DNA from: Bacteriovoracaceae bacterium
Lineage (GTDB): Bacteria; Bdellovibrionota; Bacteriovoracia; Bacteriovoracales; Bacteriovoracaceae
Assembly: GCA_019752535.1 (NCBI GenBank)
Contig: JAIEMA010000037.1
Location: forward strand, 1-55,554
Length of the DNA stretch: 55,554 bases
Direction: 5' to 3'
The notes beneath the pieces are model-generated. The model was given only the letters and a program-made list of their open reading frames with translations. It searched no databases and had not been told where the DNA came from. This document shows, piece after piece, positions 1,336 to 45,590 of the stretch. Position numbers and translations under genes: made by a program. How positions within the stretch are numbered: the stretch's first letter is position 1; each line of letters begins with the position of its first letter.

Positions 1336-3798
1336 ATGAAACTCCTTCTATCAATGCTCCTATTATTAATATTAAATCCTGCTTATTCAATGGACTGGTC
1401 CTACAGAACATTTCAGTCTCTTGATGAAACGGAATCATCTCAGTGGCAATCCATTAATCCATCTAGGCCTATAGTTAAACGAGAGTATCAGGGCTTTATC
1501 GAATATAAGACTTCATTCAGGGCCGATTCAAATACTGATAAAACTGGGATCTACCTCGGAAAGATTGGTGATGTTGATAAAGTTTATGTGAACAATATTC
1601 TCATCGGACAAACTGGCGACTTTCCGCCAAACTACTCCTACAGAATGGACATTGAGAGGCAATATTTTATTCCCGAGACAGTTCTTAGAAAAAACGATGA
1701 AAATGAACTAAAAGTTATCGTCTACGTAAAATTTCTGGTTAACAAAGGCCTAGACGTTAGAAATGTCCAGATTGGCGATAATTCTAATCTCCACCATAAA
1801 AAATATGTCGCTGAGCTTACTGAGAATTTCTCAAAAATTGTAATTCCACTGCTTTGTTTAATTCTAGCCGCAATCTCTTTCCCCACTCTGGCCCCAAGAG
1901 TATTATGGGGAGATCAGATTCTTATCTCACTTATTGGCGTCTCAAGCTTTATACTGGGTTTATGCAGAAGCAGAATTTGTTATCACTTTTTTGAAATGCT
2001 TCCCGTATATAAAATAACTCTTATATCGAGTGTTATAACGATCTGGCTGGTATCTATTTACTCAATAGGAACAAGGAACAAAATACAAAAGCGCCTTAAC
2101 TATTTGGCAACACTTGCTGCCTTCTCTCTTGTCGTATTGATATCTATTCAGAACGATCTGCTTGAAACAGCTAGTGTTGGGAAACTTTGGTTTCATGTTG
2201 CTCCCATCTTCACTTTGACTTCAATATACTGCGTTTTTCAAAAGCGAGCAAAAAACATTCCTCTAAAACTAGGCTTAATTATCCTCTTTCTTACCAACCT
2301 AAATGATAATTTGAATGATCTAAGAATCATTTTTACCTTCCCCATGCTTCAAATTGGACTGGGGTCTTTTATTACTCTCTTGATTTTGAATCAAACCATA
2401 AGATTGAAAAAGTCGTGGGAATCATTCTTCAAAAAAGAAATAAGTCTTGAATCAGATGTTAAACTTGGGAGACAGTCACTTCAACTGGCACACGACATTA
2501 GATCTCCCCTTGAGGCCTTAAAATCAACCAAAGAATCCCTATCGCTCATTCCTGAATCGGAAAGATCGCTCATTTTAATGGCCATAAGCAGGATTGAAGG
2601 AATTGCACACAATCTTTTAAAAATGAGAAAAGAAGAAAGAGTAACATCTACTCTGTTGGCCCATATTAATTCAAATATTGATTGGGTTATACAAGAAAAG
2701 AAGCTGCAATACCGATCTTACCCTGATCTATTCTTGAAATTTGAAAATGGAGTTCATAATTATCAACTCTTTACTTCGATGGGTTCAACTCAATTCAAAC
2801 GAGTCGCATGTAATCTGATATCAAATGCAGCAGAGGCCATGGGGCACACGGGCGTTGTGACTATCAATGCCGTAGAAATAGAAAATGAAATCCAGATAGA
2901 GATTTCGGACACAGGACCAGGATTTGACGAAAAACTCAAAGATCATCTTTTCGAAAATGGTTTTACAACAAAATCAAATGGTAATGGACTTGGCCTTTAC
3001 AATGCGAAAAAAGAAGTGGAGGACCTAGGTGGTAGAATCATAGTTAGCAATAATAACGGAGCAATTGTCCGGTTAACTTTGCCAAAAGCTTCGCCACCAT
3101 CAAATTTCCCAATGGAAATCAATTTAAACGGAATCACTAAGATTATTGTGCTTGATGACGATGAAAGTATCCATAACCTTTGGAGTAAGCGTCTTAGCAA
3201 ATACAAAATCGAACTTGAACATTGCTATTCCGCACAAGCTCTGCTTAAAAAGTATGCTCAACTTCCACAAAACCATTTATTACTTTCTGATTATGAGATT
3301 CTGGGCGAAGAAATTAGTGGTATCGTCAGTATTTCAAGACTAAATGCTGTTAAAAATTCGATTCTCGTTACCGCCAGAGCCGATGAATACGAAATCAATA
3401 ATAGATGTTCTGAGCTGAATCTTAAGCTTCTTCCCAAGAACCTGGCCCTTTTTATTCCTATAATCGACACCTCGTCCAAGAAAGTTGTCCTCATTGATGA
3501 TGACGAATTAGTACATATGTCTTGGAAACGAGAGGGAAAGAAATCCAATATTGAAGTTTCTACTTATTACACGGTTCAAAGTTTTCTTGATAATTTTCAT
3601 CAATATGAGAGGGCAACCAAGATTTTTATTGATTCTAATCTCTCGGGAAATATCAAGGGAGAGATAGAATCAGAAAAAATCAAAAGTCTTGGATTCGATG
3701 ATCTGTTCTTGGCAACTGGATACTCCAAGGATCATATAGATAAGCCTGCATGGATTAAAGATGTTGTAGGAAAATCTCCCACTCATTTATTCACTTAG
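1336..3798 (+). CDS. 7TM hybrid histidine kinase with two C-terminal receiver domains
   Basis: The start at 1336 gives a clean signal peptide (MKLLLSMLLLLILNPAYS). A periplasmic jelly-roll-like domain follows (residues about 20-160, with GKIGDVDKVYVNNILIG), then a block of about seven hydrophobic helices (about 165-360), as in 7TMR-DISM sensors. The kinase core has the H-box LAHDIRSPLEAL (His about 386), N-box NLISNAAEAM, G1 DTGPGF and G2 GNGLGLY. Two receivers follow: REC1 starts at IIVLDDDE (about 602, phospho-Asp in LLLSDYE about 652) and REC2 at VVLIDDDE (about 716, phospho-Asp in IFIDSN about 766). Both receivers keep the acidic pocket, Asp, Thr and Lys. It probably signals to the sigma-54 activator upstream through the operon's phosphorelay parts. 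Confidence 0.88.
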   Translation: MKLLLSMLLLLILNPAYSMDWSYRTFQSLDETESSQWQSINPSRPIVKREYQGFIEYKTSFRADSNTDKTGIYLGKIGDVDKVYVNNILIGQTGDFPPNYSYRMDIERQYFIPETVLRKNDENELKVIVYVKFLVNKGLDVRNVQIGDNSNLHHKKYVAELTENFSKIVIPLLCLILAAISFPTLAPRVLWGDQILISLIGVSSFILGLCRSRICYHFFEMLPVYKITLISSVITIWLVSIYSIGTRNKIQKRLNYLATLAAFSLVVLISIQNDLLETASVGKLWFHVAPIFTLTSIYCVFQKRAKNIPLKLGLIILFLTNLNDNLNDLRIIFTFPMLQIGLGSFITLLILNQTIRLKKSWESFFKKEISLESDVKLGRQSLQLAHDIRSPLEALKSTKESLSLIPESERSLILMAISRIEGIAHNLLKMRKEERVTSTLLAHINSNIDWVIQEKKLQYRSYPDLFLKFENGVHNYQLFTSMGSTQFKRVACNLISNAAEAMGHTGVVTINAVEIENEIQIEISDTGPGFDEKLKDHLFENGFTTKSNGNGLGLYNAKKEVEDLGGRIIVSNNNGAIVRLTLPKASPPSNFPMEINLNGITKIIVLDDDESIHNLWSKRLSKYKIELEHCYSAQALLKKYAQLPQNHLLLSDYEILGEEISGIVSISRLNAVKNSILVTARADEYEINNRCSELNLKLLPKNLALFIPIIDTSSKKVVLIDDDELVHMSWKREGKKSNIEVSTYYTVQSFLDNFHQYERATKIFIDSNLSGNIKGEIESEKIKSLGFDDLFLATGYSKDHIDKPAWIKDVVGKSPTHLFT

Positions 3799-3873
3799 AA
3801 TAAAAAGAGAAAATAAACCTGACCCTAGACTTGAAAATGAATGTATCGCTGATTATGGTCAAGTCACTTCAAA

Positions 3874-4629
3874 CTAGCGTGACTCAACATCCCATCGAAG
3901 ATTTTTATAGTTAAACTCTCCATCCAGTGTCGGTTTAACTATCTCAAAATAAGGAGACAGATCAAAATCACGTGGGACAAATAAACTATGGTGCCTAATC
4001 TGAAGTATTTCCAACTCCCGAGCAAGTTGATCCACTCCGTGAGTAACTTTAGGTAGTATTGGATAACGAACAGATTGAAACGCCTGCGCTATGAGAGTGG
4101 AACAAATAGCTTTGGTTGGCTCACTACTCCCAAATGCTAAGAGACGTCTTCTCAATTTTATAGGAACGGGGGGGGTTGGAAATAAATATCGAGCAAGATC
4201 AAAGACATTTTTTAGATCATATGTATTTCCGATCCGCGAAGCTGCATACTGAACTACTTTTTGGCAGTCATCGAGCGTCAACCTCACAGGACGACAGATG
4301 CGCGTATTGAGTGAACAATACTTACTGAGTGGGACAGCAACCACACCCTTTTCTACGTCCGCTTCAATAAGCACCAGAGGATCTTCAATCTCTTGATCGT
4401 CAGTTTGATTGCCAGTATAAATAGCAGCATGTGACCATGTAGACTGGGTTAAATATTTTATTGCAGTACTCATTCGTAAATTACCTTCAACTAAGATGAC
4501 ATCCCCCGGTTTCAACACTGCTCTAAGCTGGGCCGGTGTAAAAACGGAGGTAGAGGTATATTGCGAGTTAGGTTTATTCAAAAACTTTGCAAACTGCTTA
4601 CCCAAGATGGTCAGTATTTTTTGAATCAT
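3874..4629 (-). CDS. YiiX-like permuted NlpC/P60 (papain-fold) protein
   Basis: Domain signs are GDVILVEG near the N-terminus, WSHAAIYTG with the conserved His, and AICSTLIAQAF with the Cys near the C-terminus. This His-before-Cys order marks the circularly permuted NlpC/P60 group (YiiX/YaeF, LRAT-like), which acts as cysteine peptidases, amidases or acyltransferases. No convincing signal peptide is seen. A TTG start 33 bases upstream is possible; the ATG at 4629 is preferred. It is the last gene of the minus-strand run merT-merP-merA-cyclodipeptide synthase-this gene, 111 bases after the synthase stop. In that place it might act on a peptide or acyl product, but the link is untested. A second family member lies at 11906-12514. 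Confidence 0.72.
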   Translation of the reverse strand: MIQKILTILGKQFAKFLNKPNSQYTSTSVFTPAQLRAVLKPGDVILVEGNLRMSTAIKYLTQSTWSHAAIYTGNQTDDQEIEDPLVLIEADVEKGVVAVPLSKYCSLNTRICRPVRLTLDDCQKVVQYAASRIGNTYDLKNVFDLARYLFPTPPVPIKLRRRLLAFGSSEPTKAICSTLIAQAFQSVRYPILPKVTHGVDQLARELEILQIRHHSLFVPRDFDLSPYFEIVKPTLDGEFNYKNLRWDVESR

Positions 4630-4740
4630 ATAAAACTCACTTTGCTGACTGATTCGAAACAAGGTGTGACTATGTTAGTAAAATTAGAACTATAAAAAGG
4701 CATAATATCGTCAAAATTTCCAGGCAAGGTAACAACGCAT

Positions 4741-5397
4741 CTACACATTAATTGTGGCGTAACCTTGCCCAATTTCAGGTTTGTAACACAGGTTGTTTGA
4801 ATATAGCTTTTCATGAAAACTTATGGACTGATGGTAACAAAACAAGGACGTCTCAGTGCCGACAATTTTATTCGTTGCTGCAAACATTGGTATTTCAAAA
4901 AGGAAATATTTAACAGCTTTCAATAAGGAAACTTCATTTATCATGTTTTCATCAATTTTGTTCATTAATACCCATCGAGAAGATTCTAGGCATATATTTC
5001 GAAAATTTTCGTTGGTATCAAATAGTTGAGAAACGTGGGTTAATTCTTTTCGAAAAAAATCATTGGCCGTAAGTGTCGCATGATCAAGAATGTGATTCTT
5101 CGGTGTTAGTTTTTTTGACTCTAATGCTTTGTGCATCTTATTTCTTAACCAGTTAATCTGCTTCTTCATTTTCCGCCTAGCTTCTTCTGTAGTATAGCCC
5201 ATGGCCTCCAAAGTATAAATGGTAGGTTCATCAGGGAGAAAGAAATGAAAAGATCTAAAGTTTTCTAAGCTCCAGTCTATCAATTTTTCCAAATAATCTT
5301 GAGAGAATAGTGAATTGAATGGACTGACACCAAAACAAAGATGTTCTTTTTTTTCAAAGGCATTCACGCAACTTTGGCCTAAAGGTGATATCTGCAT
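4741..5397 (-). CDS. tRNA-dependent cyclodipeptide synthase (NYH type)
   Basis: Cyclodipeptide synthases join two aminoacyl-tRNAs into a cyclic dipeptide. The protein (218 aa from the ATG, the family's usual size is near 220-250) shows GVSPFNSLF with the nucleophile Ser25 and Asn28, the helix GYTTEEARRKMKKQ, YFLFEIPMF with Tyr164 and Glu168, CYHQS with Tyr188-His189, and IGQGYATINV at the C-terminus. Compared with AlbC as I recall it (S37, N40, Y178, E182, Y202, H203) the spacings are all identical or shifted by one constant step (12 then 14), so the fold and catalytic set appear complete; N, Y, H place it in the NYH subfamily. The ATG at 5397 has a GGAG eight bases upstream, whereas the GTG at 5415 has no Shine-Dalgarno. 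It follows merA by about 50 bases on the same strand. Product identity is unknown. Confidence 0.9.
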   Translation of the reverse strand: MQISPLGQSCVNAFEKKEHLCFGVSPFNSLFSQDYLEKLIDWSLENFRSFHFFLPDEPTIYTLEAMGYTTEEARRKMKKQINWLRNKMHKALESKKLTPKNHILDHATLTANDFFRKELTHVSQLFDTNENFRNICLESSRWVLMNKIDENMINEVSLLKAVKYFLFEIPMFAATNKIVGTETSLFCYHQSISFHEKLYSNNLCYKPEIGQGYATINV

Positions 5398-5448
5398 AAA
5401 CGATGCTCCACTCACAGAGGAATATTTATGTGTTTCATAGACAGGCTT

Positions 5449-6864
5449 CTAACTCGCACAACAACTTAAAGATTTAACATCCTTATCGAATGTTTGGGCA
5501 GCAAGTTTGACCGCTTCCCCTAATGTTAAATAGGGATGAAGCGAGGAAGCGATTTCTGAGATTGGTATTTTATATTTAATCATTAAGCTCAACTCCATAA
5601 GCAACTCTGATCCCTCTGGGGCAACGATGCGAGCACCAATAAGCTGATCGGTTCCTGTTTTTCGTAAGAGCTTTAGAAATCCTCTTGTGTCCCTCGCTGC
5701 AATAGCACGGGGCACATTATCCATAGTTAAAAATGAAGTATCATATTCAATACCTTGGGCCTTCGCTTGTGTTTCGTTTAGACCAACACCTGCAATCTGG
5801 GGATCAGAAAAGATGACCCAAGGAATTACACTATAATCAACTGACCTATTATTTCCTGAAATTGCATTTTCGATGGCAAGATTGCCTTCATAGGCAGCAA
5901 CATAAACGAGGGCCATCGAATCTAAAACGTCGCCAGCGGCATAGATATGATCTTGTGATGTTTGATTAAATTCATTTACTTTAATCGTGCCATTTTGATT
6001 GAGTTCAACACCTACCGTGCTTAAATTTAAACCATTAGTATTCGCCTTCCTTCCTGTGGCAATAAGGATCTGATCTGATTTTCTCTCAATCAATTTGCCC
6101 TTTCGGACTATATTTACTCTAATGCCATTTTCAGTGCGGGAGACATTGCTAATTTCAGAATGATTTAATATCTCAATACCTTCTTCAACTAGATATTTCG
6201 AAATCCATTCAGAGACTTCATTGTCTTCATGGAACAAAATATCACTCCTCTGGATAACCGTCACCTTAGATCCTAAGCGCTGAAACATCTGAGCTATTTC
6301 TAAAGCTATATAGCCTCCACCAACAACAATAAGCCTTTCAGGTAAAGCCTCAAGTTCAAAAGCTGTTTGACTTGTTAAATAATTTACCTCTTTCAATCCT
6401 GGAATCTCAGGAATAATGGCCGTACTTCCAGTGGCGATTAAAATTTTGGCCCCTGAGATGTTTTTCCCATCAACATTAACCGTATGAGAGTCAACAAATG
6501 TAGCATTGCCATGAACTTGCGTGATGTTTTTGTTTTTTTCAAGGACAGATTTATATTTTGCTTGCCTTAAATGACTAACGAGTGAATTCTTGTCTTCCAT
6601 TAATTGATGAAAATCAATCAATGCTGTTGCAGGTGCTATCCCGCCAAAATGACTCGTTTCAATTCTATGTTTGGTTTCTGCTGCTCGGATCAGGGTTTTG
6701 GAAGGAACGCAGCCGAAATTTACGCAGGTTCCTCCTAATTGTTCTCGCTCAATCATCCCCACCGACTTTCCAAGCTCAGAAGCTTTAATGGCCGCAGCAA
6801 ATGACGCTGAACCGCTCCCTATAATTAATATGTCGTAATCATATTTGTCATTACAACAGTCCAT
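5449..6864 (-). CDS. merA: mercury(II) reductase
   Basis: Reduces Hg(II) to volatile Hg(0) in the cytoplasm with NADPH. The 471-aa protein has an FAD-binding GxGxxS/A loop (IIGSGSASFAAA), the redox-active GGTCVNFGCVPSK (Cys47, Cys52), an NAD(P)-binding VVGGGYIALE motif, the second FAD motif YAAGDVLD, and the C-terminal vicinal pair SCCAS (Cys468-Cys469), which is diagnostic for MerA because it hands Hg(II) to the active site. The N-terminal heavy-metal-associated domain of many MerA proteins is absent, as in shorter MerA forms; MDCCNDK at the very start supplies another vicinal cysteine pair. It is four bases downstream of merP in a merT-merP-merA operon. Confidence 0.95.
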   Translation of the reverse strand: MDCCNDKYDYDILIIGSGSASFAAAIKASELGKSVGMIEREQLGGTCVNFGCVPSKTLIRAAETKHRIETSHFGGIAPATALIDFHQLMEDKNSLVSHLRQAKYKSVLEKNKNITQVHGNATFVDSHTVNVDGKNISGAKILIATGSTAIIPEIPGLKEVNYLTSQTAFELEALPERLIVVGGGYIALEIAQMFQRLGSKVTVIQRSDILFHEDNEVSEWISKYLVEEGIEILNHSEISNVSRTENGIRVNIVRKGKLIERKSDQILIATGRKANTNGLNLSTVGVELNQNGTIKVNEFNQTSQDHIYAAGDVLDSMALVYVAAYEGNLAIENAISGNNRSVDYSVIPWVIFSDPQIAGVGLNETQAKAQGIEYDTSFLTMDNVPRAIAARDTRGFLKLLRKTGTDQLIGARIVAPEGSELLMELSLMIKYKIPISEIASSLHPYLTLGEAVKLAAQTFDKDVKSLSCCAS

Positions 6865-6868
6865 TCCG

Positions 6869-7162
6869 TTATCCTTTTATTTTGCACGAAGTTTCACTGG
6901 CCTCGTAGCCAACTGAATCTATCTTTGACTTTATTTCTTTAGAGCTGACGAGACTTGAATCATAGTCAACGACAGCACTTTTTTCTTCAAAAGAAACCAG
7001 TACTTCTTTTATGCCCGCGAGTTTTTTAATTGCAGCCTTGGTTGTAATCGAGCAAGTCGCGCAAGACATGCCATTAATTTTGAAACAAGCTTGCTTTCCG
7101 GCCCCAGCATAAGCAAAGTTTAGTGATATTAAAAATAAGAAGATATGAAGTATCTTTTTCAT
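6869..7162 (-). CDS. merP: periplasmic mercury-binding protein MerP
   Basis: The start at 7162 (MKKILHIFLFLISLNFAYA) gives a standard signal peptide; the longer open frame upstream runs into merT and is not needed. The mature part is a single heavy-metal-associated domain with GMSCATC (Cys34, Cys37), the Hg-binding motif, plus one cysteine before it and one near the C-terminus. It scavenges Hg(II) in the periplasm and passes it to MerT. It sits between merT (16-base gap) and merA (4-base gap). Confidence 0.93.
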   Translation of the reverse strand: MKKILHIFLFLISLNFAYAGAGKQACFKINGMSCATCSITTKAAIKKLAGIKEVLVSFEEKSAVVDYDSSLVSSKEIKSKIDSVGYEASETSCKIKG

Positions 7163-7178
7163 AACGAATCCTTTGTTA

Positions 7179-7538
7179 TTAACCAAATAGAAAAGCAACC
7201 CATTGCGGTGATGATAGGCCTACAATAGCGATAACTAGTCCTATCCAATAAGTAATGACCATTCTTTTATACTTTTTCGGATCAGCACAGATCGAACCAG
7301 GTTCGCAAATCTTGCGCTTTCTGTAGAGTACCCAACCAGCAATAGTAAAAAGTGTGACTACCATTATAATCATTGGGACTCGAAGTACATCAAGCTTTGA
7401 AAGCGTAGCCGCTCCAGAAACACCCAGCAGGGTCAATACAAGGGGGCCAACACAACATAAGGATGAAAGAATTCCCGCAAAAATCCCCCCTCCAATCAAT
7501 AGGCCCGATTTATTTTCTATATTTTTAATCTTTTCCAT
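7179..7538 (-). CDS. merT: mercuric ion transporter MerT
   Basis: A 119-aa inner-membrane protein with three hydrophobic helices. The first helix carries the vicinal pair SSLCCVGPL (Cys28-Cys29), and the loop after helix 2 has CEPGSIC (Cys78, Cys84). The pairs and their spacing match MerT, which takes Hg(II) from MerP and delivers it to MerA. It is the first gene of the operon and is read away from merR, from the promoter region at 7571-7602. Confidence 0.93.
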   Translation of the reverse strand: MEKIKNIENKSGLLIGGGIFAGILSSLCCVGPLVLTLLGVSGAATLSKLDVLRVPMIIMVVTLFTIAGWVLYRKRKICEPGSICADPKKYKRMVITYWIGLVIAIVGLSSPQWVAFLFG

Positions 7539-7570
7539 AAATATTCTCTCTGTTGGTGATCACTGGATTC

Positions 7571-7602
7571 AGTGTACACTATGTAGTATACTACCAGAGC
7601 AA
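7571..7602 (-). promoter_or_regulatory. merTPA promoter with MerR-type operator
   Basis: On the minus strand a -35-like TTGCTC (7597-7602) is followed by a 19-20 bp spacer and GTACAC/TACACT (7571-7577). A perfect 12-bp palindrome GTAGTATACTAC (7583-7594) lies in the spacer. Its centre is 8.5 bases after the -35 box, the same phase as the dyad of classical mer operators, and the overlong spacer is the hallmark of promoters untwisted by MerR. A second perfect palindrome AGTGTACACT (7571-7580) overlaps the -10 region. Confidence 0.72.
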
Positions 7603-7632
7603 GTTCTATTTCATTAGTACAAGGTGTAAAAA

Positions 7633-8031
7633 ATGAAAACGAAAGAAGTTATTGATAAAACTGGACTCGATCGAGAGACTTTACGTTTTTATGAGACAAA
7701 GGGACTGCTCCCCAAGGCCAACAGAACTGATGCAGGTCACCGAATCTATCCCCCAAATATTCTTGTCAGGATAGATTTTATTACAAAAGCAAAGCACGCA
7801 GGTTTCACTCTCAAAGAAATAAAAGACCTCATTGATCTTCAACAGGAAAAAAAGTCATGTCGAGCAGGAAGGAACGTAGCTATTTTGAAAAAAAAACAGA
7901 TTGATGAACAGATGAAAGCTCTTAAAGAGATGAATACTATTCTAGAACGGTTTATAAAGGAATGTGAGAAGAATGGTGACTCTGGACTAAACCGTCCATG
8001 TCACTTTTCATTTGATGAATGCTGTTCTTAG
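7633..8031 (+). CDS. merR: mercury-responsive MerR-family regulator
   Basis: The 132-aa protein starts with the MerR winged helix (TGLDRETLRFYETKGLLPKA) and a long dimerisation helix. Cys76, Cys111 and Cys123 sit in SCRAGR, KECEKN and RPCHF. The Cys76-Cys111 spacing of 35 matches Cys82-Cys117 of Tn501 MerR. The second interval is 12 instead of 9 residues, so the Hg loop is slightly longer, and two more cysteines end the protein (DECCS). It is divergent from merT and should repress and, with Hg(II), activate the operon. Confidence 0.9.
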   Translation: MKTKEVIDKTGLDRETLRFYETKGLLPKANRTDAGHRIYPPNILVRIDFITKAKHAGFTLKEIKDLIDLQQEKKSCRAGRNVAILKKKQIDEQMKALKEMNTILERFIKECEKNGDSGLNRPCHFSFDECCS

Positions 8032-8068
8032 CAGGCATCGAAATTGCAAAGTAAAACGAGGAGGGAAC

Positions 8069-8170
8069 ATGAATACTCATAAAAAGATTATAATACCACT
8101 TCTCACGCTTATTACTCTCGCTTTTGCTATATTTCTCTACCTTCAATTCGTCTTAATAACATCAGGATGA
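8069..8170 (+). CDS. 33-aa single-pass membrane microprotein
   Basis: A short frame starts at an ATG 5 bases after a very strong Shine-Dalgarno stretch (GAGGAGGGA) and ends at TGA 8168-8170. It encodes a basic N-terminus (MNTHKK) followed by one hydrophobic helix of about 24 residues (IIIPLLTLITLAFAIFLYLQ and on). It lies 37 bases downstream of merR on the same strand, so it is probably co-transcribed with it, and it abuts the convergent nupC stop. It does not resemble MerC, MerE or MerF closely. Function unknown; it is too short for confident family assignment. Confidence 0.6.
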   Translation: MNTHKKIIIPLLTLITLAFAIFLYLQFVLITSG

Positions 8171-9406
8171 TCAGCTATAAACTAGTCCTACAAGAAGACC
8201 AGTAATCATTGTTGCCATATTCCCAACAATTAACGATTTCACCGACAACTCCGCAACTTCTTTTTTTCTCTCGGGCAGAAGTGACGATAAACCACCAATA
8301 ATAATTCCAACACTCGCCAAGTTTGCAAACCCGCAAAGAGCATATGTTAATATTGTAATGGTTCGTGGTGACAAGCTGGCCATATGTTGAGGGAGTGTTA
8401 GATACGCGACGAATTCATTAAGAATAATTTTAATCCCCATTAATTCACCAGCGATTTGAGTTTCTCCCCAAGGAATTCCAATTAACCACATAACAGGCCG
8501 AGCAATCCAACCAACAATAATTTCCAATGAGTAGTTTCCTGGAATCAAGGAAAGCATTTCATTTACAAGATAAACTAAAGCAAAAAGCACCAGCAATGTA
8601 GCAGCAATCTGAAGAACCATTTCTAATCCGTCTTTTATCCCCGTCATAATAGCATCAAAGAAACTTGTGAAAACTTGGCCCGTTGACTCACTCACTGTAA
8701 AATCAATTTTGTCACCATGAGGAATCACCATAAATGATAAGGACAAGGCAACGGGTACACTCATTAACGAAGCGATCATTAAATGCCCAATCGCATTGGG
8801 CAACACATGCGAAAGAGTCGTCGCGTATAAGACCATCACAGAACCAGCGACAGTTGCCATTGAACAGCTGATTAGGGAAAAGAGTTCTCCCCTGCTCAGC
8901 TTACCTAAATATTGCTTTATAATTAGTGGCGACTCTATTGTTCCTAAAAATACTGAAGCCGCTGCACCGAAAGCTAATGGCGAAGAAATCCCTAAAGTTC
9001 GATGAAGGAGCTTCGAAAATAATCGGATGATGAATGGAAGAATTCGAAGATAAAACAATATATTTGATAAAACTGTTACGACTAAAATAAGTGGTAACAC
9101 ACGAAAGGCAATAACAAATAGATTTTCAGGATTTACCACAGTAAAGGGAGTGCTACCTCCGCCAAGATAACCAAAGATAAAGGATGAAGACTTCTGAGTC
9201 ACTTTATCCAAAACACCTACCCCCTTATTTAGCCATAAGAAGAAATTCGCAACTGCTGGAACAGAGGTAAGGATCAAAACCATACCAAAAGCCATCAAGA
9301 AGCCTAGGAAGACTTTTTTCCAAGGTATCAATTCTCTCCTTTCACTCATCGCAAAAGAAACGGAGATAAAAAAAAGCATTCCAATAAGTGCCTGAATAAA
9401 AAGCAT
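8171..9406 (-). CDS. NupC-type concentrative nucleoside transporter
   Basis: A 411-aa inner-membrane protein with about ten hydrophobic segments. Segments such as GSVMVLYATTL, the gate-loop text and LTYALCGFANLASVGIIIGG match the CNT/NupC family, which imports nucleosides with H+ or Na+. The start codon overlaps the stop of the upstream CDP-alcohol phosphatidyltransferase gene (TAATG), so the two are translated together. A nucleoside hydrolase is found at 16673-17656, so nucleoside use is a theme of the region. Confidence 0.88.
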   Translation of the reverse strand: MLFIQALIGMLFFISVSFAMSERRELIPWKKVFLGFLMAFGMVLILTSVPAVANFFLWLNKGVGVLDKVTQKSSSFIFGYLGGGSTPFTVVNPENLFVIAFRVLPLILVVTVLSNILFYLRILPFIIRLFSKLLHRTLGISSPLAFGAAASVFLGTIESPLIIKQYLGKLSRGELFSLISCSMATVAGSVMVLYATTLSHVLPNAIGHLMIASLMSVPVALSLSFMVIPHGDKIDFTVSESTGQVFTSFFDAIMTGIKDGLEMVLQIAATLLVLFALVYLVNEMLSLIPGNYSLEIIVGWIARPVMWLIGIPWGETQIAGELMGIKIILNEFVAYLTLPQHMASLSPRTITILTYALCGFANLASVGIIIGGLSSLLPERKKEVAELSVKSLIVGNMATMITGLLVGLVYS

Positions 9407-10018: not shown

Positions 10019-10732
10019 TTAACGGTTTAAGTTTATACTCTTCTCATATGAATCATTCATATGAGAGTCTGATTCCCCAAGCAGAAAACGAAGCTTTAAC
10101 ATTTGATTTTGAATAGCTTGATTCCAAACACCTTTAGATTTAAAGCGGATAGCGGATGTTGTGCTTTTCCAGCTTGATCTAGTCGGTTGATAAAGCTCAC
10201 CGAGTTTTAAAGAAAGAATTGTATCTTCAAATATCTCAACCGATGGGAGACCACCAACCTTCTCCAGTAGGCTTTTTCGAACGAATAGACAGTGATCTAG
10301 ATAGAAAATTTTCTTAATATCTCCACGAACAGAATTGGACCACCACGAAGTGAAAATAAGTAAAGGATGGTCAAAATCAAACTCATGTGTGAAAGCTCCC
10401 CATTTTACGGAATTATTTTGCGCAAGAAGTGAATGAAAGGCATTTTCCTGGAGGCAACTTCTAGGATGATTTAAAAGTATCCAACTATCTGAAGTACCAG
10501 TTGATACCTTAAAAGCAGCGTTATAACGTTCTGCCCGCTTGTTAGTATGGATTTCAACTAGTTTTACTCCGCTATCTACAAGTCTTGTTAATGTATCATC
10601 ATCCCCTTTGGTCACTCCTACCAATAGTTCGATATTCATTCCTCCAGATTTAAGACTTTTGACAAGATCAATTGTCTTCCAGAAATAGGGATTTGAACTT
10701 TCATTATAAGCTGAAAGAAGTACACTTATCAT
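10019..10732 (-). CDS. family 2 glycosyltransferase (rSAM/selenodomain-associated type)
   Basis: The ATG at 10732 is preferred over a TTG six bases upstream because AGAGG lies 8-9 bases before it. The protein starts MISVLLSAYNES, the GT-A nucleotide-binding strand of GT2 enzymes. RAERYNAAFKVSTG, WGAFTHEFD, VRGDIKKIFYLDHCLFVRK and VGGLPSVEIFEDT line up with the conserved blocks of the TIGR04283-like group (RA.Q.N.GA, GD..IFVRR..F..VGGFP...ED). The usual HADT is replaced by NHPRS. It leads the short operon with the phosphatidyltransferase and nupC. Confidence 0.75.
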   Translation of the reverse strand: MISVLLSAYNESSNPYFWKTIDLVKSLKSGGMNIELLVGVTKGDDDTLTRLVDSGVKLVEIHTNKRAERYNAAFKVSTGTSDSWILLNHPRSCLQENAFHSLLAQNNSVKWGAFTHEFDFDHPLLIFTSWWSNSVRGDIKKIFYLDHCLFVRKSLLEKVGGLPSVEIFEDTILSLKLGELYQPTRSSWKSTTSAIRFKSKGVWNQAIQNQMLKLRFLLGESDSHMNDSYEKSINLNR

Positions 10733-11905: not shown

Positions 11906-12514
11906 TTATTGAACTTCAACAAAATCATCAGACTTCTCAAAGTCGGCGGGAGAATTACCGATCTCTCTCTCAGGCAAAGATCCATTAAAGTACCTTAACC
12001 ATTCTTTTCTGTATTTCAAATAATGCATCGATTTTGTTGGAAATTGATAGCCTATAGTCGCCATGAGAAACTTTGTAACAAACTCCGAGCAGTATAATTT
12101 TTCGTTCCCATGCTCATCCATGTTGTTCCAACGAAATTCAGAATCATAGGTCCGTCCATTATATTCTTCAAGGAAGAGTCCAAAATATCGATCTTTATTC
12201 TTGGTATAAGCATCAACAATACGATCTTCTTTAAAACGTAAAATTTTAATCGCCTGATGTTTCTCTGTTTTTGATAGAAAGTCTTTCAAACTCAAGGCCC
12301 TAACCTGCCCAAACGATTCAGCAACAACGATCTCCGTATCAGCTTTGATAACCAATCCCATATGCGAGTAAATTGACCCTTCCTCAGCTTCGATCAGGCT
12401 ACAAGTCCAGCAATTGAGAGGTTGCAATATGATGTCTCCAGGACGAAGAACAGTTAACGCTCTCAGGTTAAAACTAATTGATATCAGAAATAAAAACAAC
12501 ATCCTTAATTGCAT
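11906..12514 (-). CDS. secreted YiiX-like permuted NlpC/P60 protein
   Basis: A signal peptide (MQLRMLFLFLISISFNLRA) is followed by LRPGDIILQP, IYSHMGLVI with the conserved His, and LYCSEFVTKFL with the catalytic-type Cys. The His-before-Cys order identifies the permuted papain-fold YiiX group. An extra CWTC pair lies near the N-terminus of the mature protein. The start overlaps the end of the AhpD-like gene by 10 bases, so it is the last gene of the transglutaminase-receiver-AhpD run. It likely acts in the periplasm on a peptide or acyl substrate. Confidence 0.78.
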   Translation of the reverse strand: MQLRMLFLFLISISFNLRALTVLRPGDIILQPLNCWTCSLIEAEEGSIYSHMGLVIKADTEIVVAESFGQVRALSLKDFLSKTEKHQAIKILRFKEDRIVDAYTKNKDRYFGLFLEEYNGRTYDSEFRWNNMDEHGNEKLYCSEFVTKFLMATIGYQFPTKSMHYLKYRKEWLRYFNGSLPEREIGNSPADFEKSDDFVEVQ

Positions 12515-45161: not shown

Positions 45162-45590
45162 TTAAAGGTAATTATTTAAATTTTTGATAGCCTCATGAAT
45201 TTCGTCCCGTACTTTTCGATAAACGGCCATAATCTCTTCTTCATTACTCATGTTCTTGGCCAGTGCGGGTGGATCTTGAAATCCAAGATGAATAACTTTG
45301 CTTCCGGGAAAATATGGGCACAGCTCTTTGGCAGAGTCACAAACGGTAATCACATAGTCAAAGTTCACCTTAGGTAATTCTTCAACCGTTTTCGAAAATT
45401 GAGTCGACAGGTCAATGCCTTCTTCCTTCATAACCTCAATTGCTCGATCATTCATTCCGTGTTTTTTTGTACCTGCAGAATAAACATTAAAATCATTTCC
45501 CCAATACTTACGACACCACCCCTCGGCCATTTGGGAGCGACATGAGTTACCAGAACATAAGAACATGATGTTTTTCTTTTTCGATAGCAT
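45162..45590 (-). CDS. arsC: thioredoxin-coupled arsenate reductase (LMW-PTP type)
   Basis: The 142-aa protein has the phosphatase-like P-loop LCSGNSCRSQ (Cys12, Arg18) and the relay cysteines in ITVCDSAKELCP (Cys84, Cys91). The spacing equals that of the S. aureus pI258 ArsC triad (Cys10, 82, 89). DPPALAK carries the general acid Asp. It reduces As(V) to As(III), the substrate of ArsM. No arsenite efflux pump gene is near it in the window. Confidence 0.92.
   Translation of the reverse strand: MLSKKKNIMFLCSGNSCRSQMAEGWCRKYWGNDFNVYSAGTKKHGMNDRAIEVMKEEGIDLSTQFSKTVEELPKVNFDYVITVCDSAKELCPYFPGSKVIHLGFQDPPALAKNMSNEEEIMAVYRKVRDEIHEAIKNLNNYL

Follow-up and report, generated by a model that had tools for sequence, protein, structure and literature searches.

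A cyclodipeptide synthase in a mercury-resistance operon of a Bacteriovoracaceae bacterium and the recurrent linkage of its clade to metal-resistance genes

Cyclodipeptide synthases (CDPSs) are commonly regarded as enzymes that begin the synthesis of antibiotic-like secondary metabolites, and mer operons are taken to have a fixed repertoire: transporters, reductase, lyase, and regulators. In the stretch of DNA considered here (55,554 nucleotides of contig JAIEMA010000037.1 from a Bacteriovoracaceae bacterium, hereinafter the window), a CDPS gene lies behind merA on the same strand. What could a cyclodipeptide do among mercury-resistance genes, and does the same neighborhood occur elsewhere?

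The gene occupies positions 4741..5397 of the minus strand and encodes a CDPS of the NYH subfamily, 218 aa long. It starts with the ATG at 5397, located 8 nt after a likely ribosome-binding site, GGAG (5406..5409, minus strand); a longer variant starting with the GTG at 5415 is possible. The original prediction of a CDPS with the full catalytic set holds both for family profiles and for structure prediction: the protein scores 201.6 bits against Pfam CDPS PF16715 (E 1.8e-59, cut-off 27) and 220 bits against TIGR04539 (cut-off 45), and its AlphaFold (AF2) model, based on 22 aligned sequences, has a mean pLDDT of 96.3, a class-I aaRS-like fold and, according to Foldseek, a TM of 0.91 to YvmC. 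In the PDB sequence set, only solved CDPSs match the protein (YvmC, 1e-29; AlbC, 1e-14). In the 22-sequence alignment, Ser25, Asn28, Tyr164, Glu168, and Tyr188 do not vary, and His189 hardly does; these residues correspond, respectively, to S37, N40, Y178, E182, Y202, and H203 of AlbC, and N28, Y188, and H189 carry the N40/Y202/H203 signature of the NYH subfamily. The dN/dS ratio is 0.22–0.39 in eight out of nine CDPS pairs compared, the remaining pair, whose members are almost identical, giving 0.52; this indicates purifying selection on the CDPSs of these pairs. The residues and profiles confirm the window gene as coding for a catalytically intact NYH-type CDPS with predicted activity.

The genes of the window are ordered merT–merP–merA–CDPS–C92, with merR divergent. 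The product of merA (5449..6864, minus strand) is a true mercury(II) reductase, exceeding the cut-off of the TIGR02053 equivalog (562.9 vs. 454.45 bits) and carrying the GTCVNFGCVPSK motif and the C-terminal SLSCCAS. Upstream of it, on the same strand, are genes for a merP-like periplasmic HMA protein with GMSCATC (6869..7162; PF00403, 47.7 bits; TIGR02052, below the cut-off) and for a merT-like mercuric transport protein (7179..7538; PF02411, 76.7 bits). Facing merT is a MerR-type operator/promoter (7571..7602, minus strand), TTGCTC-20 nt-TACACT, with the GTAGTATACTAC dyad inside the spacer; MerR-family promoters typically have such an over-long spacer, with a dyad at its center. The divergent merR-like gene (7633..8031, plus strand) encodes a PF13411 protein whose best curated family is TIGR02051 MerR (96.3 bits, under the cut-off of 150.85) and whose best solved relative is 4ua1, with two Cys aligned. 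Hence, the locus has the MerR-controlled merT, merP, and merA of a mer operon, and, as the regulator scores under the curated MerR cut-off, it is mainly the gene content of the operon that points to mercury as the signal.

The location of the CDPS gene inside a mer operon, claimed in the original prediction, is borne out by MerA, MerT, MerP, the operator, and the gap of 51 nt between the merA stop and the CDPS ATG. Given this gap and the lack of terminator-like sites on the operon strand in the scanned region 3700–8200, merA and the CDPS gene likely share one transcript, and the CDPS gene is likely co-transcribed with merTPA; Hg(II) would then induce the entire operon, including the CDPS gene. 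Promoter-like sites are found at the chance level, which speaks neither for nor against a separate promoter for the CDPS gene. The tailoring enzymes usual for CDPSs are indeed missing, as had been noted earlier: no P450, cyclodipeptide oxidase, or methyltransferase adjoins the window CDPS gene, and no CDPS-associated cytochrome P450 was found in the stretch searched around the locus.

The C92 gene (3874..4632, minus strand; PF05708, 45.5 bits), encoding a permuted papain-like (YaeF/YiiX) protein, starts 108 nt after the CDPS gene and may share its transcript; as a general functional partner it was rejected, being absent near every other CDPS locus. The window also encodes a second C92 (YaeF/YiiX-like) papain-fold protein (11906–12514) and a protein with the low-molecular-weight phosphatase fold (45162–45590; PF01451), possibly an arsenate reductase.

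Within Bdellovibrionota, CDPSs are present in four out of 369 genomes, and in two of these four the CDPS gene adjoins merA on the same strand: in the window and in KLAP46, which belongs to a different family of the phylum and where the end of the CDPS gene (L006:7973–8692) overlaps the start of merA (6285–7976) by 4 nt. The KLAP46 pair adjoins a phage-type integrase gene. In the third genome (L007), the CDPS gene lies behind that of a Cupredoxin_1 protein (PF13473), and in the fourth (L005), the CDPS, to which the window enzyme is most closely related, is encoded among shikimate genes, with no metal genes. True MerA was found in five out of 125 searched genomes of the window's family. Four sibling operons (L179–L182) have the order merR / merT–(merB)–(merP)–merA with no CDPS gene adjacent to merA, the contig ending soon after merA in two of them; thus, the CDPS gene is an addition to the mer operon.

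To survey other bacteria, we searched genome contigs with a single sequence, which gave no matches, and GTDB genomes with an alignment query, which yielded 74 loci (labeled here by L-numbers); further genome searches added loci from Alphaproteobacteria and Actinomycetota. Metal-marker genes within 7 kb of the CDPS gene were then counted, with Pfam checks. The counts should be read with the following in mind: the search pattern favored the 56-row clade described below, the marker list was made after the first matches, contig ends cut some loci, and near-identical loci inflate the numbers. The merA–CDPS pair does recur outside the window, in differing arrangements and regulatory settings, and the best plasmid relatives of the window CDPS are Streptomyces genes in metal-resistance clusters.

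In closely related sphingomonad loci (Sphingobium, Sphingomonas, and Erythrobacter; L150, L050, and L051, counted as one case), co-directional genes are ordered ECF sigma–NrsF–CDPS–232-aa protein–merB–merT/HMA–merA, with merR set apart. TGTAACC-N16-CGAAC is found just upstream of the CDPS gene and of the 232-aa protein gene in all three loci; L150 and L050 also carry it before their merT unit, where it was not detected in the partly masked L051. The three copies in L150 compare with a shuffled mean of 0.005. Judging by its letters, the motif upstream of the CDPS gene is the published sigma-F site of Caulobacter, GTAACC-N16-CGAA (PMC3511200). The SigF–NrsF regulon of Caulobacter is turned on by Cu, Cd, and chromate, and Cu tolerance depends on it (PMC8224329). 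In L150, 108-nt repeats (7057–7164, 8007–8114, and 10318–10425), each with a sigma-F-like promoter, precede successive genes of the mer region. The 232-aa protein between the CDPS and merB (L051:8020–8718) has an apparent signal peptide and no Pfam or NCBIfam match.

In Parvularculaceae (L047, L146, and L149), the CDPS gene converges with merB at a distance of at most 101 nt, with merA, merP, and merT nearby, and is preceded by a gene for a 125-aa Cys/His protein. Short Cys/His-rich proteins encoded directly upstream of Parvularculaceae CDPSs (L047:6500–6877, L046:1442–1801, and L039:6520–6900) appear to have a membrane or signal stretch at the N-terminus and match no family. The 232-aa and 125-aa neighbors were rejected as candidate tailoring enzymes of the mer loci, since neither matches a Pfam or NCBIfam family, and L046 was left out of the mer count, its neighbor being glutathione-reductase-like rather than MerA.

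Among Actinomycetota, Nocardia L034 has the order P1B ATPase–CDPS–merB–merR, and Streptomyces and relatives have a MerR-family gene next to a CDPS–P1B ATPase unit. The operator TTGACC-20-TAxCGT (x is any base), with a dyad of 9–10 bp, precedes the CDPS gene in thirteen actinobacterial loci, two of which have TACGGT as the second box, and in one more locus (L152) the match is looser; the Streptomyces form of the MerR-family promoter is TTGACC..ACCTTGCCCTAAGGGCAAGGT. Where the start is clear, about 13 nt separate the −10 element from the CDPS ATG, so that CDPS is the first gene of the unit. The regulator has its best score with CueR or CadR/PbrR, under the cut-offs, and the ATPase exceeds the cut-off of the copper subfamily; hence, these units probably respond to copper or similar ions, not to mercury. 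In yet another setting, the CDPS gene is found with those of a BlaI-family regulator and an M56 peptidase and, in one case, CopC.

CDPS genes of Bacillus, Photorhabdus, Bartonella, and most other Streptomyces are located beside P450s or other genes. Three more arrangements were observed. Actinomycetota have a conserved unit of LysR and CDPS–cytosine/purine-type permease whose CDPS shows the same pocket type (L015, L018, L026–L028, L033, L037, L040, L164, and L166), and its permease may carry the cyclodipeptide. Single open reading frames fuse a CDPS with PAS and histidine-kinase domains, the CDPS being first in L058:6962–9202 and L060:6932–9067 and last in L062:5795–7621 and L072:5804–7633 (Ca. 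Megaira), possibly forming a self-contained make-and-sense protein. In Legionella, the pairing is unfused, a hybrid histidine kinase directly following the CDPS (L009:5980–8734, with the domains PAS–HisKA–HATPase–REC–Hpt; also L056, L068, and L073).

On a tree of 91 CDPS sequences, all 30 metal-linked CDPSs (nine mer-linked, 18 other metal-linked, and three BlaI-linked) fall into one clade of 56 rows (SH-aLRT 93), compared to none out of 35 outside it by the same rules (Fisher 7e-9, a rough guide, uncorrected for relatedness). A single clade of mer-linked CDPSs is rejected (AU p 1e-34), as is a single clade of all metal-linked CDPSs (AU p 5e-6), implying repeated recruitment, or gain and loss. 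The genomic association is well supported; on our best reading, metal-resistance and metal-stress regulons recruited members of this clade on several occasions. Also in the clade are enzymes that have similar pockets and are linked to LysR and a permease or to histidine kinases, as well as CDPS102 of Algicola sagamiensis (L059), which lies beside the alphaproteobacterial mer-linked enzymes and shares the clade with the window enzyme without being its nearest relative.

The likely product was addressed through the substrate pockets, whose letters were read at the published P1 and P2 positions. This reading exactly recovers the published letters of two assayed enzymes, CDPS102 (VGYPSIFF/SAIKDPT) and CDPS100 from Nocardia concava (CGHPWLLY/TDVHRIP), and is thereby validated. 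The pockets of the window CDPS read CGFPHMFF (P1) and SWVNQIS (P2), sharing four out of eight P1 letters with CDPS102; the His at position 119 is unusual. P1 of some alphaproteobacterial mer-linked enzymes (L047 and L146), VGYPSLFF, is one position out of eight off CDPS102. The 56-row clade is the only large NYH group in the tree matching no other named pocket group, and thus we infer that it largely corresponds to the cCC group, for which the primary paper is reportedly that of Jacques from 2015. According to published assays, CDPS102 in E. coli yields 73% cyclo(Cys-Gly), or cCG, and 27% cyclo(Cys-Cys), or cCC, and CDPS100 makes cPP; Gondry et al. place CDPS102 in the cCC group of 60 sequences (PMC5816076). 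As an enzyme making cCG and cCC lies in the same clade, the earlier suggestion of Cys gains support, and Cys in the product of the window enzyme is likely, though not certain. The actinobacterial P1, CGFPWLFF, is letterwise nearer to the Leu-accepting LGFPWLVF (table in PMC5816076), so Cys is not the unique reading of these pockets. A His-containing product, the other option in the original prediction, finds no support: none of the characterized NYH enzymes was seen to use His (PMC5816076).

Taking all this into account, we propose, with a probability of about one half, that the intact CDPS of this MerR-controlled operon makes a metal-induced, Cys-containing cyclodipeptide serving to bind soft metals or to deliver them. 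Hg(II) would switch on the merT–merP–merA–CDPS operon; the CDPS would take Cys-tRNA, with P1 accommodating Cys and P2 either a further Cys or a small residue, and would release cyclo(Cys-Cys) or cyclo(Cys-X). The ring would remain unmodified, since no tailoring enzyme is recognized in metal-linked loci, and its thiol or thiols may serve as ligands of soft metal ions, so that Hg(II) would be buffered inside the cell or passed on to MerA. Actinobacterial rings would act likewise beside the metal-exporting ATPase. The wider statement, that a tRNA-dependent, Cys-containing cyclodipeptide is an inducible ligand of mercury and other soft metals repeatedly recruited to MerR and SigF–NrsF loci, falls somewhat short of even odds. 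Just as tentatively, this ligand would span Bdellovibrionota, Alphaproteobacteria, and Actinomycetota and represent a new kind of metal-resistance metabolite.

If the ring of a metal-regulated CDPS were free of Cys (consisting, e.g., of Leu or Pro), it would be a signal, or a membrane-active or stress-protective molecule, rather than a ligand. The P1 pattern xGxPWxxF does occur in characterized Leu and Pro enzymes as well, and a sister group fused to, or located beside, PAS-histidine kinases suggests signaling by related rings. We consider such a ring unlikely, as the assayed enzyme from within the clade makes cCG and cCC, and no sensor kinase is encoded beside the metal-linked members, save an oppositely oriented one 1 kb from the window gene.

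Less probable still is that the CDPS merely rides mobile metal-resistance islands and takes no part in metal handling. The mobility of mer genes, the integrase beside the KLAP46 pair, the sister of the window enzyme with no metal link, and the G+C content of the window CDPS gene, 34.7% vs. 39.5% for the whole window, conform to such hitch-hiking. Yet, in three phyla and in one clade only, CDPS genes are placed repeatedly either in tight coupling, as in the 51-nt gap and the 4-nt overlap, or immediately after MerR-family operators or a promoter of the sigma-F type, and the enzymes evolve under purifying selection. A drain of charged tRNA (e.g., Cys-tRNA) that would slow translation or spare thiols, the ring being a by-product, accords with the consumption of aminoacyl-tRNAs by CDPSs and with the attack of Hg(II) on thiols, but it has no sequence evidence behind it, no CDPS is known to us to work so, and we regard it as very improbable.

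Returning to the metal-binding ring, we found in the literature outside subscription papers no earlier description of a link between CDPSs or diketopiperazines and mercury, heavy metals, or P-type ATPases, and a word search of two CDPS family surveys gave no mention of metals. We also know of no mer operon with a CDPS and of no physiological role for cyclo(Cys-Cys)-type products. A CDPS clade wired into metal regulons joins secondary metabolism and mercury resistance; if the proposal is true, it would provide such a role and a new component of mercury resistance, as well as a soft-metal ligand that is genetically encoded and could be used in remediation or sensing.

Classical mer operons consist of merRTPA, with merB, C, D, E, F, and G; the window operon has the same core, divergent merR and merT–merP–merA, and adds the CDPS gene. 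With AlbC, Rv2275, and YvmC, all of them NYH CDPSs, the window enzyme has in common the fold, the catalytic residues, and N40/Y202/H203, whereas its pocket letters differ, and its gene lies in a mer operon with no adjacent tailoring enzymes. CDPS102 of Algicola belongs to the same clade, but the identity is only about 33%, and its locus, unlike the window, has no metal markers within 7 kb. A CDPS-derived metal ligand is already represented by the pulcherriminic acid pathway (YvmC–CypX), which serves iron; however, it needs a P450, deals with iron(III) rather than with soft-metal detoxification, and its YvmC belongs to a different clade of the tree. Similarly, bufferins are small Cys-derived copper ligands induced by metal stress under SigF–NrsF control (PMC12452194, PMC8224329), and the sphingomonad CDPS genes lie behind a sigma/anti-sigma pair and a promoter of this kind; the likeness is functional only, since bufferins are modified ribosomal peptides, whereas the CDPS ring is tRNA-dependent, and the chemistry is unrelated. 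Thus, compared to these systems, a known enzyme family appears in a new, recurrent, metal-regulated role, whose genomic part is supported and whose chemical part is plausible.
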